DNA of 64,000 nucleotides from contig CANJXQ010000004.1 of NCBI GenBank assembly GCA_947478805.1, positions 1 through 64,000 of the forward strand. The letters are read 5' to 3'. Shown one piece after another: positions 963-27,924 of the stretch. The notes under the pieces were generated by a model. The model was not told the origin of the DNA. It ran no database searches and saw only the letters and a list, made by a program, of their open reading frames with translations. The DNA comes from Betaproteobacteria bacterium (GTDB lineage Bacteria; Pseudomonadota; Gammaproteobacteria; Burkholderiales; SG8-39). A program made the translations under genes and the position numbers. The first letter of the stretch is position 1; the number at the start of each line of letters is the position of its first letter.

Positions 963-1084
963 GACTTCTCCCGCAGCCCGCATCCCCGCGGGCCGGCAAA
1001 GCGTGAAACAACAAATGGAAACAGCGGGAGAAGCATCAGCTTGCGCCAAGTCATACCGCCCGTCCGCAGTATTTCCGTCTATCG

Positions 1085-1298
1085 TTCAGGCCGGTCTCCG
1101 GGCTTGTGGGATCAGGTGCGTCGCCTTCCCGCGAGCGAGCGCTCACAGTGGCTTGGCCATTCTTGGGGAACGACCGATGTTTGACGCACCCGCGCGCACT
1201 TACCGTTGCGGGGGCAGCTCAGGAATGGGCAGGAGGTCATCCTGCTTTCACCTGATTCCCGTTTCACCCCGACGCAAGGATCGCGTGCGGGGCACCAT
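1085..1298 (-). promoter_or_regulatory. Cobalamin (AdoCbl) riboswitch
   Basis: Reverse complement shows GGTGCC..., GGGTGAAACGGGAATCAGGTG, GCTGCCCCCGCAACGGTAAG, GCCACTGTG and CCCGGAGACCGGCCTGA, the conserved cobalamin riboswitch blocks in order, upstream of the TonB receptor. Confidence 0.93.
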
Positions 1299-1429
1299 GA
1301 ACGAGCGGGCCGATTGTATCCCAGGGACCGCGCATCGAACGAATGGCGACCAGGCACGATCACGAATCTACATTGAAAATAATTCCTTACACCTTGACGC
1401 AGCAGGATTTTTCAAACTATAGTGCAGCG

Positions 1430-1999: not shown

Positions 2000-2043
2000 T
2001 CATCTGCGCATCATCTCGGCAAGCAGTTGCCCGTTGTTTCATT

Positions 2044-2235
2044 GTCCCCTGCGGTGTTTGCCAGGGCCCGGAGATTCTTGAACCAACATTGAGATCCCGG
2101 GTTGCTGCCTGGAGTGCCGCTGTTGCGCGCGTCCCCGTTCCTGGAACGAGCCGGACGTGCCTGATGTGGCCGGAAAGCGACCACCTAGAACCGTTCTTGG
2201 TTCAGGATCAGGGTCCAGCGGCATTGGCGGGGGAC
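2044..2235 (+). ncRNA. ssrS: 6S RNA
   Basis: Located immediately downstream of zapA; closing stem GTCCCC...GGGGGAC; CCTGCGGTGTTTGCCAGGGC 5' segment; no coding ORF; followed by an intrinsic terminator. Confidence 0.85.
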
Positions 2236-2244
2236 ACCCATCGC

Positions 2245-2902: not shown

Positions 2903-3985
2903 ATGCCCGCTCCCCAGAATGACACGTTGATACGCGCGCTGCTGCGGCAACCAACACCGTACACGCCGGTTTGGCTCATGCGGCAGGCCGGGCGCTACCT
3001 GCCGGAATACCGCGCAACGCGCCAACGTGCCGGCAGTTTTCTTGCACTGGCAAAATCGCCGGCGCTCGCAACTGAAGTCACGTTGCAGCCTCTTGAGCGC
3101 TATCGCCTCGACGCCGCCATCCTTTTTTCCGACATCCTCACCGTTCCCGATGCCATGGGACTCGGACTGTACTTCGCCGACGGCGAAGGGCCTCGCTTCC
3201 ACAATCCGGTTCGCGACGCCGCTGCCGTTGCAAAACTGTTTACGCCCGACCCCTCGCGCGAACTTCGCTATGTCATCGACGCCGTCTCGGAGATTCGCCG
3301 GGCGCTGAACAATCGCGTGCCCTTGATCGGGTTTTCGGGCAGTCCGTATACGCTGGCCTGCTACATGGTCGAGGGCGGGGGCAGCGACGATTTTCGCACC
3401 ATCAAGACCATGCTCTACAGCGAACCCGCGCTTTTGCATCGGATACTGGAAGTCAACGTCCGTGCAGTCACTGATTACCTGAATGCCCAGATCGAAGCGG
3501 GCGCGCAGGCCGTGATGATCTTCGACACCTGGGGCGGCAACCTGTCACATGCCGCGTTTCGCGAATTTTCGCTGGCTTATACGCGCCGTGTGCTCGCCGG
3601 ACTGAAACGCGAGCACGACGGCGTTCGCATCCCCAGCATTGTGTTCACCAAAGGCGGCGGCCTGTGGCTGGCGGACATCGCTGCGAGCGGCAGCGACGCG
3701 GTCGGACTGGACTGGACCATGAGCCTTGGCGACGCGCGCAAGCTGGTGAAGGATCGCGTGGCACTGCAAGGCAACATGGATCCCATGGCCCTGTTCGCCT
3801 CCACCGATGCCGTGCGCGCCGAGGTTGCGCGCGTGCTCGCCGATTTCGGGGCAGGCCCCGGCCATGTTTTCAACCTCGGGCATGGCATATCGCAATTCAC
3901 GCCACCCGATACCGTGACAGCACTGGTCGATGCGGTACACACGCTCAGCCCCGCATATCATGACGGTGACAGCGTCCCGCGCTAG
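2903..3985 (+). CDS. hemE: Uroporphyrinogen decarboxylase
   Basis: [30 protein letters not shown]...; UROD signature; full length 360 aa. Confidence 0.97.
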
Positions 3986-4121
3986 AAGTTTGTTGAAAAA
4001 GGTGCGCACGGTCCCCCTTGACCCCCTACTTCAGGGGCTGTTGAAAGCCGCGTCCCTCTGTCACGAACGCAAGTCGTTGTTCATTGGGTTCGTCGGGAAG
4101 CGATTATCAACAACCCGCTGA
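3986..4121 (+). repeat. Copy A of a ~130-bp interspersed element with TGTTGAAAAA/TTaTCAACA ends
   Basis: Aligns end to end with the reverse complement of 26059-26194; C-rich core CACGGTCCCCCTTGACCCCCTACTTC identical between copies. Confidence 0.88.
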
Positions 4122-4487: not shown

Positions 4488-6686
4488 ATGATCATCGCGA
4501 AAGTCGCGCTTGACGTACCGCTGCCGCGATTGTTCGACTATCGCGCGGAGGGTCTGGATACCAGCGCAATCGGATTGCGCGTTGTCGTGCCGTTCGGCCA
4601 GATGGGCGCACGAGCTGCAGCACGCAGTGCGGTCGGCGTCATCGTCGCGCTCGCAAGCGACTCCACCATCGCCCCTGAGAAATTGAAATCGATCGAGCGC
4701 GTCCTGCGGGATGCACCGCCCCTGCCATCTGATTGGCTCGCATTGATGGCATTTTGCGCCGGCTACTACCAGAAACCGATCGGCGAAGTGTTGTTGTCGG
4801 CGCTGCCACCGCGCCTGCGCACCGCTAACGCACTGCCCCCTGCCGAACGACAGTACCGTCTGACCCGTCCAGCAAGTGAACTTGTCGAGGCGCTGCCGTC
4901 GCGCGCGCAACGTCGCCGTGCGCTGATTGCGGCGCTCGCGGCAGGCCCCATGGACCATGTGGCCGCCACCCAACTCGATCGTGGCGGACGCGCTGCTCTC
5001 AACGCAATGCTCGCCGAAGGGAGCGTCGCCATCGAGGACGCCCTTCCCGGTCGGCCCGATTTCGTTGCCCCGCATGCGCTCATGGCCGAGCAGCAATCGG
5101 TGATCAGCGCCATTGGAAGCGAGATGCATCGCTTTGCCGTGCACCTGCTCTTTGGCATCACCGGGAGCGGGAAGACCGAGGTGTACCTCCACTTGGTCGC
5201 GAGCGCCCTCGCTTCCGGCCGCCAGGCACTGGTGCTGGTGCCGGAAATCGCGCTGACCCCTTCACTCCAGGCCGCATTCAGGGCCCGCTTTCCCGGTGCC
5301 GTGATCACCATGCAGCACAGCGGCATGCCGGCGCTCGAGCGCGTGCGAGGCTGGCTGGATGCGCAGCGCGGGCGCGCCGACATCGTACTGGGCACACGAC
5401 TGGCCGCGTGGGTCCCGCTGGCACGTCCCGGCATCATCGTCGTCGACGAGGAACAGGACGCATCCTTCAAGCAACAGGACGGGCTGCGATACAACGCCCG
5501 CAACGTCGCCATCTACCGCGCGCGTGAAGCCGGCATCCCTATCGTGTTGTCGTCGGCGACGCCGTCCCTGGAGAGCTACCAGCATGCGCTGAGCGGTCGC
5601 TATCGCCTGCACCGGCTGGCGGCGCGCGCGCATGCCGAAGCGGCGCTGCCTGCCGTGCGCCTTGTCGATACGCGTCGTCACGCAGCCAAGCACGGCCTGA
5701 CGGAACCGCTCGCCGACGCCATCGACAAGCGCCTGGCACGGGGCGAGCAGGTGCTGGTGTTCCTCAACCGGCGCGGCTACGCGCCAGTGTTGGCATGCAA
5801 TGCCTGTGGCTGGATTTCCAATTGCCCGGACTGTGCCGCGCATCTGGTCGTGCACCTGTCCGAAGGCCGCCTACGATGCCACCATTGCGGGCATGCCGAT
5901 GCCCTGCCGCGCGCATGCCCCGATTGCGGCAACCTGGATCTGCATCCGCTCGGACGCGGTACGCAGCGACTGGAAGTCAGCCTGGCCGAGCGTTTCCCCG
6001 AGGCGCGCATCCTGCGCATCGATGGCGACAGCACGCGCAATCGCGGCAGCCTGGAGTCCATGCTCGAGGAAGTACATGCCGGTCGCGCCAACCTGCTCAT
6101 TGGCACCCAGATCCTGGCCAAGGGCCACCATTTCGAGAACCTGACACTGGTCGCCGTCCTCAATGCCGATGCCGGCCTGTTTGCCGCGGACTATCGGGCC
6201 AGTGAACGCCTGTTCTCGCAACTGGAGCAGGTCGCAGGTCGAGCCGGGCGCGCGCACCTGCCTGGTGAAGTATGGATACAGACCCGGTTCCCCGATCACC
6301 CGCTTTACCAGGCCCTGGCGCGCCACGACTACGCGGGGTTCGCGGCCTCCGTGCTTGAAGAGCGCGAGCAGGCGGGGTTCCCGCCGTTCGTGTTCGAGGC
6401 CGCATTGCGCGCCGAGGCCGAAACGCAAGCGCTTGCCCAGACCTTCCTGCAACAGGCCCTGCTTGTCGCACCGCCTGGGCGCGAGGGCATCACGCTGTTT
6501 CGTCCGGTCCCCATGGCCATGCCGAGGCTCGCGCGGCTCGAGCGCGTGCAACTGGTGTTGCAGGCGTCATCGAGGCCGCGCCTCCAGGCCTGGCTGCAGC
6601 AATGGTCGCAGGCCCTTTACGCATTGCGCGGCAACGTTACCAAGGGCGTGCGCTGGCACCTCGACATCGACCCGACCGAGTTCTAG
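4488..6686 (+). CDS. priA: Primosomal protein N' (replication restart helicase PriA)
   Basis: GITGSGKTEVYLHL Walker A; eight-Cys zinc-binding region CNACGW..CPDC..CHHCGH..CPDCG; 732 aa. Confidence 0.96.
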   Translation: MIIAKVALDVPLPRLFDYRAEGLDTSAIGLRVVVPFGQMGARAAARSAVGVIVALASDSTIAPEKLKSIERVLRDAPPLPSDWLALMAFCAGYYQKPIGEVLLSALPPRLRTANALPPAERQYRLTRPASELVEALPSRAQRRRALIAALAAGPMDHVAATQLDRGGRAALNAMLAEGSVAIEDALPGRPDFVAPHALMAEQQSVISAIGSEMHRFAVHLLFGITGSGKTEVYLHLVASALASGRQALVLVPEIALTPSLQAAFRARFPGAVITMQHSGMPALERVRGWLDAQRGRADIVLGTRLAAWVPLARPGIIVVDEEQDASFKQQDGLRYNARNVAIYRAREAGIPIVLSSATPSLESYQHALSGRYRLHRLAARAHAEAALPAVRLVDTRRHAAKHGLTEPLADAIDKRLARGEQVLVFLNRRGYAPVLACNACGWISNCPDCAAHLVVHLSEGRLRCHHCGHADALPRACPDCGNLDLHPLGRGTQRLEVSLAERFPEARILRIDGDSTRNRGSLESMLEEVHAGRANLLIGTQILAKGHHFENLTLVAVLNADAGLFAADYRASERLFSQLEQVAGRAGRAHLPGEVWIQTRFPDHPLYQALARHDYAGFAASVLEEREQAGFPPFVFEAALRAEAETQALAQTFLQQALLVAPPGREGITLFRPVPMAMPRLARLERVQLVLQASSRPRLQAWLQQWSQALYALRGNVTKGVRWHLDIDPTEF

Positions 6687-24022: not shown

Positions 24023-26058
<2,036 letters not shown>

Positions 26059-26062
<4 letters not shown>

Positions 26063-26194
26063 CAGGCTGTTGAAAAACGCTTCCCGAATGCGAAACTCAC
26101 CAATTCACATGCTTCGCTTCAGAGGGAAGGGTTTTTCAACAGCCCCCGAAGTAGGGGGTCAAGGGGGACCGTGTCCCCCTTTTTCAACACCCTA
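26059..26194 (-). repeat. Copy B of the ~130-bp interspersed element (inverted relative to copy A)
   Basis: Reverse complement GGTGTTGAAAAAGGGGGACACGGTCCCCCTTGACCCCCTACTTCGGGGGCTGTTGAAAAACCCTTCCC...GGGAAGCGTTTTTCAACAGCCTG aligns with 3986-4121; CTAG at both edges. Confidence 0.9.
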
Positions 26195-26208
26195 GCTAGC
26201 GCGCGTGG

Positions 26209-27924
26209 CTAACCGCCTGTCTTCTCCGCCAGTAGCGCCTTGCCCGCGAGGTGGTGGGCCGCCAGATAGCCGAAGGTGAACGCCGGACCTAGGGTGATGC
26301 CGGGACCCGGGTAATAACCACCGAACACGCTGGCGCTGTCGTTGCCGGCCGCGTAGAGGCCGGGGATGGGCTTGCCGCTGCCGTCGAGCACGCGCGCGTT
26401 GCGGTCGGTGGAGATGCCCACATAGGTGCCGATGGTGCCCATGCGAATCCGCACGGCATAGAAGGGGCCTTCCTCGAGCGGGGCGACGCAGGGGTTCGGC
26501 TTGTGTTCCACATCGCCTAAGAACCGGTTGTAGGCCGTGCTGCCGCGGCCGAACTCGGGGTCTTGCCCGTTGCGGGCGCCTTCGTTGTACTTGGCGACTG
26601 TGTTCTCCAGGGCGTCGGGCGGCACGCCGATGGCGCCGGCGAGTTCGCGCAGCGTACTGCCGCGCTTCAGGTAGCCGCTGCGCAATTGCGAGCCGTACGG
26701 GATCGGGAAGGGCTTGACGAACCCGAGGCCGTATTTGCGCATGGCGCGGTGATCGCACACCATGTACACGCCGGGGTCCGAGCCTTCGTTCAGCGCCGTC
26801 ATGGCGATGACGAAGTCGTGATACGAGTTTGACTCGTTGCAAAAGCGCACGCCGTGGCGGGTCACGGCGATGAAGCCGGGCTTGTAGCGGTCCACAAGGT
26901 GCGGGAAGGTGCCCTTGCGGCCGCCTTCGAGGATGGGCTCGGAGACCGGCATCAACGCGCCCGGCTGATAGACGTGGGAGTTGATCGCCCCACCCGCCGA
27001 GGTGGCAAGGTTCAACCCGTCGCCCGTGTTGCCTTCGGCCGCGGGTGAGCGCGTCTGCGTGCCGTCGGGGTCGCGCGGGAAGAATTGCGAGCGCAGCTTC
27101 GGGTCGTGCGGAAAGCCGCCCGCCGCAAGCACCACGCCTTTCTTGGCCATGATCCTCTCTCGTCCCTTCGGCCCGTCAATGACCACGCCGCGCACCGCGC
27201 CGTCCTCTATGACGAGTTCCTTCGCCGGCGATGACAGGCGAATCTCGATGCCGAGCTCGAACGAGGTCTTCGCCAGCCGCGCGATCAGCGCGTTGCCGCC
27301 CTTCAACTGCACGGTGCGCCCGTAGCGCAGGACCTGCCACACGGCGCGCAGGAACATTCGCGTCACGTACATGAAGGACGTGAGCGACCGGGTGAAGTTG
27401 TAGAAGTGCTTCAGCTCCTCCTGGCTGCCGCTGAACATCATGCCGGCGAAAGTGATCTCGCGAAGCGGCGGGCGCAGGTTGCGAAGGTGCTTGCCGAGGT
27501 TGCGGCCATCGTAGGGGTGGCACACCAGCGGCCGCCCGCCCTGCCCGGCGCCGTCGAAGTCGGAGTGATAGTCCGGCAGCCCGTACGGAAAGAACTTCAC
27601 CTCGGTTTCGTCTTCCAGGAACTTCGCCATCTTCGGGCCGATCTTCAGGTAGGCCTCGATGCGGTCGGCATCCAGGTAATCGCCCACCTCCTCGCGAAGG
27701 TAGAGGCTCGCCGCCTCGACCGAATCCTTGTACCCCGCACCCGGTTCATGGTGATTGGCCGGAATCCACAGCGCGCCGCCCGAGCGGGCCGTCGTGCCGC
27801 CGAAGACCGCATCCTTCTCGACGATGCACACGCGCAGGCCGAGCTTGGCGGCCGTCACCGCCGCACCGAACCCGCCGCCGCCGGAACCGACGACGACGAC
27901 GTCGTATGTACTTTGTTGTTCCAT
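26209..27924 (-). CDS. FAD-dependent oxidoreductase (3-ketosteroid dehydrogenase/fumarate reductase flavoprotein-like)
   Basis: YDVVVVGSGGGGFGAAVTAAKLGLRVCIVEKDAVFGGTTARSGGALWIP...; GLYAAGNDSASVFGGYYPGPGITLGPAFTFGYLAA. Confidence 0.93.
   Translation of the reverse strand: MEQQSTYDVVVVGSGGGGFGAAVTAAKLGLRVCIVEKDAVFGGTTARSGGALWIPANHHEPGAGYKDSVEAASLYLREEVGDYLDADRIEAYLKIGPKMAKFLEDETEVKFFPYGLPDYHSDFDGAGQGGRPLVCHPYDGRNLGKHLRNLRPPLREITFAGMMFSGSQEELKHFYNFTRSLTSFMYVTRMFLRAVWQVLRYGRTVQLKGGNALIARLAKTSFELGIEIRLSSPAKELVIEDGAVRGVVIDGPKGRERIMAKKGVVLAAGGFPHDPKLRSQFFPRDPDGTQTRSPAAEGNTGDGLNLATSAGGAINSHVYQPGALMPVSEPILEGGRKGTFPHLVDRYKPGFIAVTRHGVRFCNESNSYHDFVIAMTALNEGSDPGVYMVCDHRAMRKYGLGFVKPFPIPYGSQLRSGYLKRGSTLRELAGAIGVPPDALENTVAKYNEGARNGQDPEFGRGSTAYNRFLGDVEHKPNPCVAPLEEGPFYAVRIRMGTIGTYVGISTDRNARVLDGSGKPIPGLYAAGNDSASVFGGYYPGPGITLGPAFTFGYLAAHHLAGKALLAEKTGG

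Follow-up and report, generated by a model that had tools for sequence, protein, structure and literature searches.

A repeat of about 130 bp lies directly behind hemE in the window (by which we mean the whole 64,000-nucleotide stretch of DNA that was analysed), and recurs in inverted orientation between two other genes. What kind of element is this, and what places it at the ends of genes? The first-pass annotation, made from the letters of the window alone, had reported the pair at these two places with 52 of the first 56 bases identical, which we could reproduce, and since one copy (copy A) matches the other (copy B) within the genome with E = 6.9e-22, their likeness is not due to chance. 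It had, however, described a two-copy element. A DNA search of the genome to which the window belongs (G000; 4.42 Mb in 263 contigs) gave 10 matches to the repeat, the weakest at 4.9e-8, and the covariance model and copy count that the annotation had proposed (model R1, built from 58 copies) recovered exactly 8 full-length copies, the remaining two matches (C241 and C18) being truncated. By this model the element is 132 bp long, far below the ~600 bp up to which an element counts as a MITE, and both copies in the window are full length: copy A occupies 3986-4117 on the + strand (model positions 1-132; 103 bits) and copy B 26063-26194 on the - strand (134.6 bits). We collected 74 family copies from relatives, mostly 131-133 bp in length, and related copies occur in other genera of the window organism's family. 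The same boundaries recur in relatives, and the segment does not belong to an insertion sequence (IS). Neither copy contains an ORF of 80 amino acids or more or, as had been noted, a transposase gene. The element is a MITE, that is, a non-autonomous mobile element, on every testable point of the definition, and we verified that it represents a new MITE family. Neither its end sequence nor IS5-derived MITEs of Burkholderiales are described in the open-access literature that we searched, and plasmid records matched the element and its core at chance level only.

Copy A is flanked by hemE (2903-3985) and, on its other side, by a priA-like gene (4488-6686, + strand); the gene names used here are taken from protein sequences and gene order alone. 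Its first base lies directly 3' of the hemE stop codon, so the start of the span originally proposed (3986-4121) was right, whereas its end had to be moved to 4117, the last four bases being a target copy, CTGA. The parts of copy A are as follows:

3982-3985, + strand: left target copy of copy A, CTAG, in which 3983-3985 is the hemE stop codon TAG (sequence)
3986-4117, + strand: MITE copy A, full length, 132 bp (model R1)
3986-4000, + strand: left terminal inverted repeat AAGTTTGTTGAAAAA, family form CAGGGTGTTGAAAAA (alignment)
4001-4017, + strand: hairpin 1 region GGTGCGCACGGTCCCCC, decayed in copy A; family form GGGGG-loop-CCCCC (alignment, fold)
4022-4037, + strand: conserved-core segment with the second C block and TCAGGGG (alignment)
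4036-4056, + strand: internal (third) inverted-repeat copy, which is the 5' arm of hairpin 3 (alignment, covariation)
4095-4115, + strand: 3' arm of hairpin 3, overlapping the right terminal inverted repeat at 4103-4117 (alignment, covariation)
4118-4121, + strand: right target copy of copy A, decayed to CTGA; CTGG in the orthologous copy of the closest relative, G005 (sequence)

Copy A is common to G000 and G005 and is missing from six other relatives. Because it is shared with G005 and its flanks have decayed, copy A is older than the other copies. The hemE copy (L001, G000:C4; L022, G005:C10) is the only full copy seen in common with G005 and also the most decayed one, as expected of the oldest. 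The empty relatives give no base-by-base alignment beside the insertion point at hemE, and the precise empty sites described below belong to other copies.

Copy B lies inverted between the convergent genes 24023-26062 (+ strand), which from its own sequence alone we take to be biotin-carboxylase-like, and 26209-27924 (- strand). Its features are:

26059-26062, + strand: target copy of copy B, CTAG, in which 26060-26062 is the stop codon of ORF 24023-26062
26063-26194, - strand: MITE copy B, full length, 132 bp, at a site that is empty in G005 (model R1)
26065-26085, - strand: right-end arm of hairpin 3 (sequence, alignment, fold)
26124-26144, - strand: internal-repeat arm of hairpin 3 (sequence, alignment, fold)
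26163-26178, + strand: hairpin 1 followed by CTTTTT, intrinsic-terminator-like and reading in the same direction as the upstream gene (1 found against 0.5 expected in shuffles; fold)
26196-26199, + strand: second target copy, CTAG, one base beyond the modelled end

The junctions of copy B in G000 read ...AAAACCTAG-(element)-CTAGCGCGCG, with one extra G preceding the second CTAG, and the empty site in G005 reads ...AAAGCCTAGCCGCGCG.

The motif YTAR, which makes up 0.17% of positions, stands to the left of 44 and to the right of 48 of the 74 family copies. Where it is present at both flanks (29 copies), the two are identical in 23 cases against 9.7 expected, and none of 20,000 permutations gave as high a number. 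This shows that the element makes 4-bp YTAR target duplications, which were read from the better-preserved copies, half or more of the copies having decayed flanks. Seven G000 sites besides hemE were then compared with G005 after removal of the element and one target copy, and six of them, including that of copy B, align unbroken at 90-96% identity. Single YTAG sites are also present in G005 for copies C26, C197, and C174; no YTAR is seen where copy C142 (L005) is missing, and copy C30 (L007) aligns as two separate pieces with no clean empty site. The comparison shows that most G000 copies were gained more recently than the divergence of G000 from G005. The first-pass annotation had left the class at "MITE/REP-type", and a REP/BIME element, of the kind that a Y1 (RAYT) transposase mobilises, would indeed be intergenic, palindromic, and present in many copies, as is the element here. 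REPs, however, have no target duplication and no long terminal inverted repeats. Given the 4-bp duplications, the empty sites with a single target copy, and 15-bp terminal inverted repeats in common with DDE-type ISs, we retained the first half of that label and consider the second extremely improbable.

The outer inverted repeats of the MITE are CAGG(G/C)TGTTGAAAAA, and the 15-bp terminal inverted repeats are nearly invariant among 58 aligned copies. Read 5' to 3', the family layout opens with YTAR and the left repeat CAGGGTGTTGAAAAA; hairpin 1 (GGGGG-loop-CCCCC) comes next, ahead of the second C block and TCAGGGG or TCAGAGG. The internal repeat GGCTGTTGAAAAACGCTTCCC follows, separated by a variable loop from GGGAAGCGTTTTTCAACAGCC, after which TG and YTAR close the series. 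The motif TGTTGAAA, which had been said to occur twice direct and once inverted in each element, does so exactly in copy B, whereas the inverted occurrence in copy A has decayed to TTATCAACA. The internal repeat, which is the third copy, pairs with the right end as a 21-bp stem (hairpin 3) in which 89.3% of cells are paired and 45 cells carry two-sided changes, against 17.2 in shuffles (0 of 500 shuffles as high); since related copies have one AA-TT swap in common, which accounts for most of the two-sided changes and is found in 18 sequences, these cells are not independent events. The outer repeat was considered as pairing partner of the right arm and rejected: it is the internal arm that changes together with the AA to TT swap, whereas the left end stays unpaired with the swap in 22 and 28 sequences at the two positions. 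As the left repeat does not follow the swap, the conserved feature is hairpin 3, and not the outer pair. Four copies (L144, L150, L180, and L181) represent a variant in which an extra hairpin-forming insert of ~25 bp separates hairpin 1 from the second C block.

Might the element instead be a structured RNA gene, or a cis-regulatory RNA, that is not mobile? The fold of intact copies is much stronger than that of shuffled sequences (z -6.5 to -8.3), and the compensatory changes in hairpin 3 would suit such an RNA. Yet hairpin 3 shows no conservation in its loop, the + strand of copy A (z -1.1) folds little better than its shuffles, and no Rfam family matches at the element. Mobility is indicated by polymorphic insertion, by the target duplications, and by host genes unrelated to one another, so that we regard a stationary RNA as very unlikely. 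Elsewhere in the window, Rfam places a cobalamin riboswitch and 6S RNA upstream of hemE, at 1072-1315 (- strand) and 2043-2237 (+ strand).

The comparison with IS5 elements that had been suggested at the outset was rewarded, in that IS5-family elements with the same ends and YTAR duplication were found. A search for the terminal-repeat pattern across 398 members of the window organism's order, Burkholderiales, gave inverted end pairs ~1.34 kb apart in two genomes, G308 and G136. G308 carries four copies of a 1340-bp IS and G136 a 1335-bp IS, every one with identical YTAR duplications (TTAG, CTAA, CTAG, CTAG, and CTAA); their transposases score 289 and 291 bits with NCBIfam NF033581 (IS5_4; cut-off 140), and the IS transposase exceeds the Pfam cut-offs for DUF772 and DDE_Tnp_1. 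A scan of public genomes yielded 80 loci, mostly in Burkholderiales, with both ends present in 53, mostly 1.33-1.37 kb. Among the IS copies with YTAR at both flanks, those of G308 and G136 included, the duplication is identical in 41 of 48. The window organism's own family has a complete IS flanked by TTAA/TTAA in G019, a MITE carrier of genus g14; its transposase scores 298 bits with NF033581 (cut-off 140), and the right end of the g14-type MITE, CAGGCTGTTGAAATTCGC, is identical to an IS end over 18 bases. These findings show that autonomous ISs having the MITE's ends and YTAR duplication are present in Burkholderiales, one of them in a MITE-carrying genus.

The Burkholderiales ISs of this group (NF033581/IS5_4) resemble the MITE in their terminal repeat, CAGGCTGTTGAAA(TTCGC), and in their 4-bp YTAR duplication; unlike it, they are 1.33-1.35 kb long, carry a transposase gene, and have neither a C-rich core nor a third copy of the repeat. 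The MITE's C-rich left half is absent from all 53 IS copies that have both ends. Neither in G000 nor elsewhere in its genus, whose genomes are incomplete MAGs, did we find an intact IS5_4 transposase, and the transposase fragments present at G000:C86 and G005:C3 lack matching ends. Our reading is that an IS5-family transposase (NCBIfam IS5_4, DUF772 + DDE) very probably acts in trans to move the MITE. Such an enzyme would bind CAGGSTGTTGAAA at both element ends, cut, and insert at YTAR, and the G000 copies may have been moved by an IS since lost or located within unassembled sequence. Several genera of the order also hold different elements of 140-206 bp (L096, L097, L098, L102, L111, and L115) that share the MITE's terminal repeat, CAGGCTGTTGAAAAA, and mostly have YTAR flanks, which are probably other MITE families of the same transposase group. 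A 151-bp element in the window's own genus (L120; G004:C44:10132-10884) also shares these ends and is flanked by CTAA/CTAG, with an interior unrelated to that of the present MITE.

What, then, places the copies at gene ends? Of the 68 MITE copies with enough flank, 38 stand exactly on a TAA or TAG that closes an ORF of at least 150 codons; among 108 control YTAR sites from the same loci, 22 do so (p = 1.8e-6), ORF ends having been called mechanically, without gene annotation. Both window copies lie on stop codons (the hemE TAG at 3983-3985 and the TAG at 26060-26062), and an ORF of at least 150 codons ends at most 80 bp from an element end in 61 of the 70 oriented copies. YTAR contains TAA/TAG and is its own reverse complement; because it is self-complementary, insertion at a stop is possible for genes on either strand. 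It follows from the sequence that an insertion at the stop codon should leave the protein unchanged: with TAA/TAG in the target and both strands alike, the stop and the protein would stay intact. Such stop-sparing insertion, together with the loss of harmful insertions, would leave copies at gene ends, and selection may keep the stop-codon copies.

The same placement would also be seen if the element were kept for ending transcription, partly in both directions, or for stabilising mRNA 3' ends wherever it is carried, with transposition merely its supplier. The proximity of so many copies to ORF ends agrees with this, as do the paired changes that keep the long hairpin and the greater frequency of the MITE than of the ISs on such stop codons (38 of 68 against 12 of 35; p = 0.06). 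A stretch with at least 5 T among 8 bases follows hairpin 1 on the reverse strand in 49 of 58 copies and on the forward strand in 25 of 58, and the terminator-like site of copy B is directed away from the upstream gene. Hairpin 1 may act as a terminator. The orientation bias is weak, though, with 26 genes reading into the hairpin-1 end and 13 into the other (p = 0.053), and the better T run lies in the direction opposite to the one that this bias would call for. In addition, hairpin 1 of copy A has decayed and forms no terminator-like site, and much of the position bias is explained by target choice and purging. We consider retention as a terminator or stabiliser rather doubtful as the main explanation, and continue with the trans-mobilised MITE.

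The conserved core, AAGGGGGC-loop-GCCCCCTTnT-nnATCCCCCAnnTCAG followed by the long hairpin, is accompanied by different ends: TGTTGAAA in several genera and TGATGCAAAA in genus g9. Copies in the g9 genome G083 that match the model (L320, L328, L334, and L339 carry the TGATGCAAAA ends) have the same layout, 132 bp long, with TGATGCAAAA at all three repeat positions. Another g9 genome, G085, holds an IS5-like IS of 1312 bp (L396:1340-2651) with ends CAGC(C/G)TGATGCAAAA, CTAG/CTAG flanks, and a related transposase. Weaker model matches in g17 and other families of the order consist of core and hairpin alone, without IS5-type ends. The matches in g9, g17, and other families are near threshold and come from one model, and they are the basis of the end-changing reading, not of the main claim. 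The element may thus be a chassis that changes its ends, with a core that has a function of its own (e.g., transcript ending at stop codons) and that recruits whichever IS5 transposase is present by converting the three repeats together, an idea that we put forward tentatively and with somewhat less than even confidence. Copies L322, L330, and L336 (G022), L325 (G462), L326 (G163), and L357 (G004) have the core as AAGGGGGC-loop-GCCCCCTTGT-nnATCCCCCAnnTCAG without IS5-type ends, and in the G022 copies and L325 the core is followed by a hairpin with different arms.

Short, palindromic, intergenic MITEs of 100-160 bp at gene borders include Correia/NEMIS of Neisseria, RUP of pneumococcus, and ERIC, for which a founder IS is known or suspected and effects on transcripts are possible. 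These duplicate TA and belong to other IS groups, and we know of none among them that targets stop codons or contains a third repeat copy inside. Within the order, the MITEs of the 141-142-bp CAGGCTGTTGAAAAACTACTGC... type and the 151-bp element of G004 have the same terminal repeat and YTAR flanks as ours, but their interiors are unrelated and without the C-rich core. As for the target, IS711 (IS6501) of Brucella is placed in the IS5 family. A YTAR target consensus and a preference for palindromic repeats are reported for it (PMC2266754). It differs from the MITE in its reported TA-only duplication, in being an IS with its own transposase, and in its host group. What sets the present family apart from the MITEs known to us is the third repeat in a covarying hairpin, the stop-codon target, and ends that change jointly with those of the IS between genera.

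An anonymous repeat is now tied to a defined transposase family, with ends, a target, and empty sites that can be tested. With a target that is a stop codon on either strand, so that insertion at a gene end would cost nothing, the transposon would have a simple way into a gene-dense genome. The three-repeat layout and the joint change of MITE and IS ends permit tests both of how a MITE may adapt to a new transposase and of whether its copies may be retained as gene-end signals.
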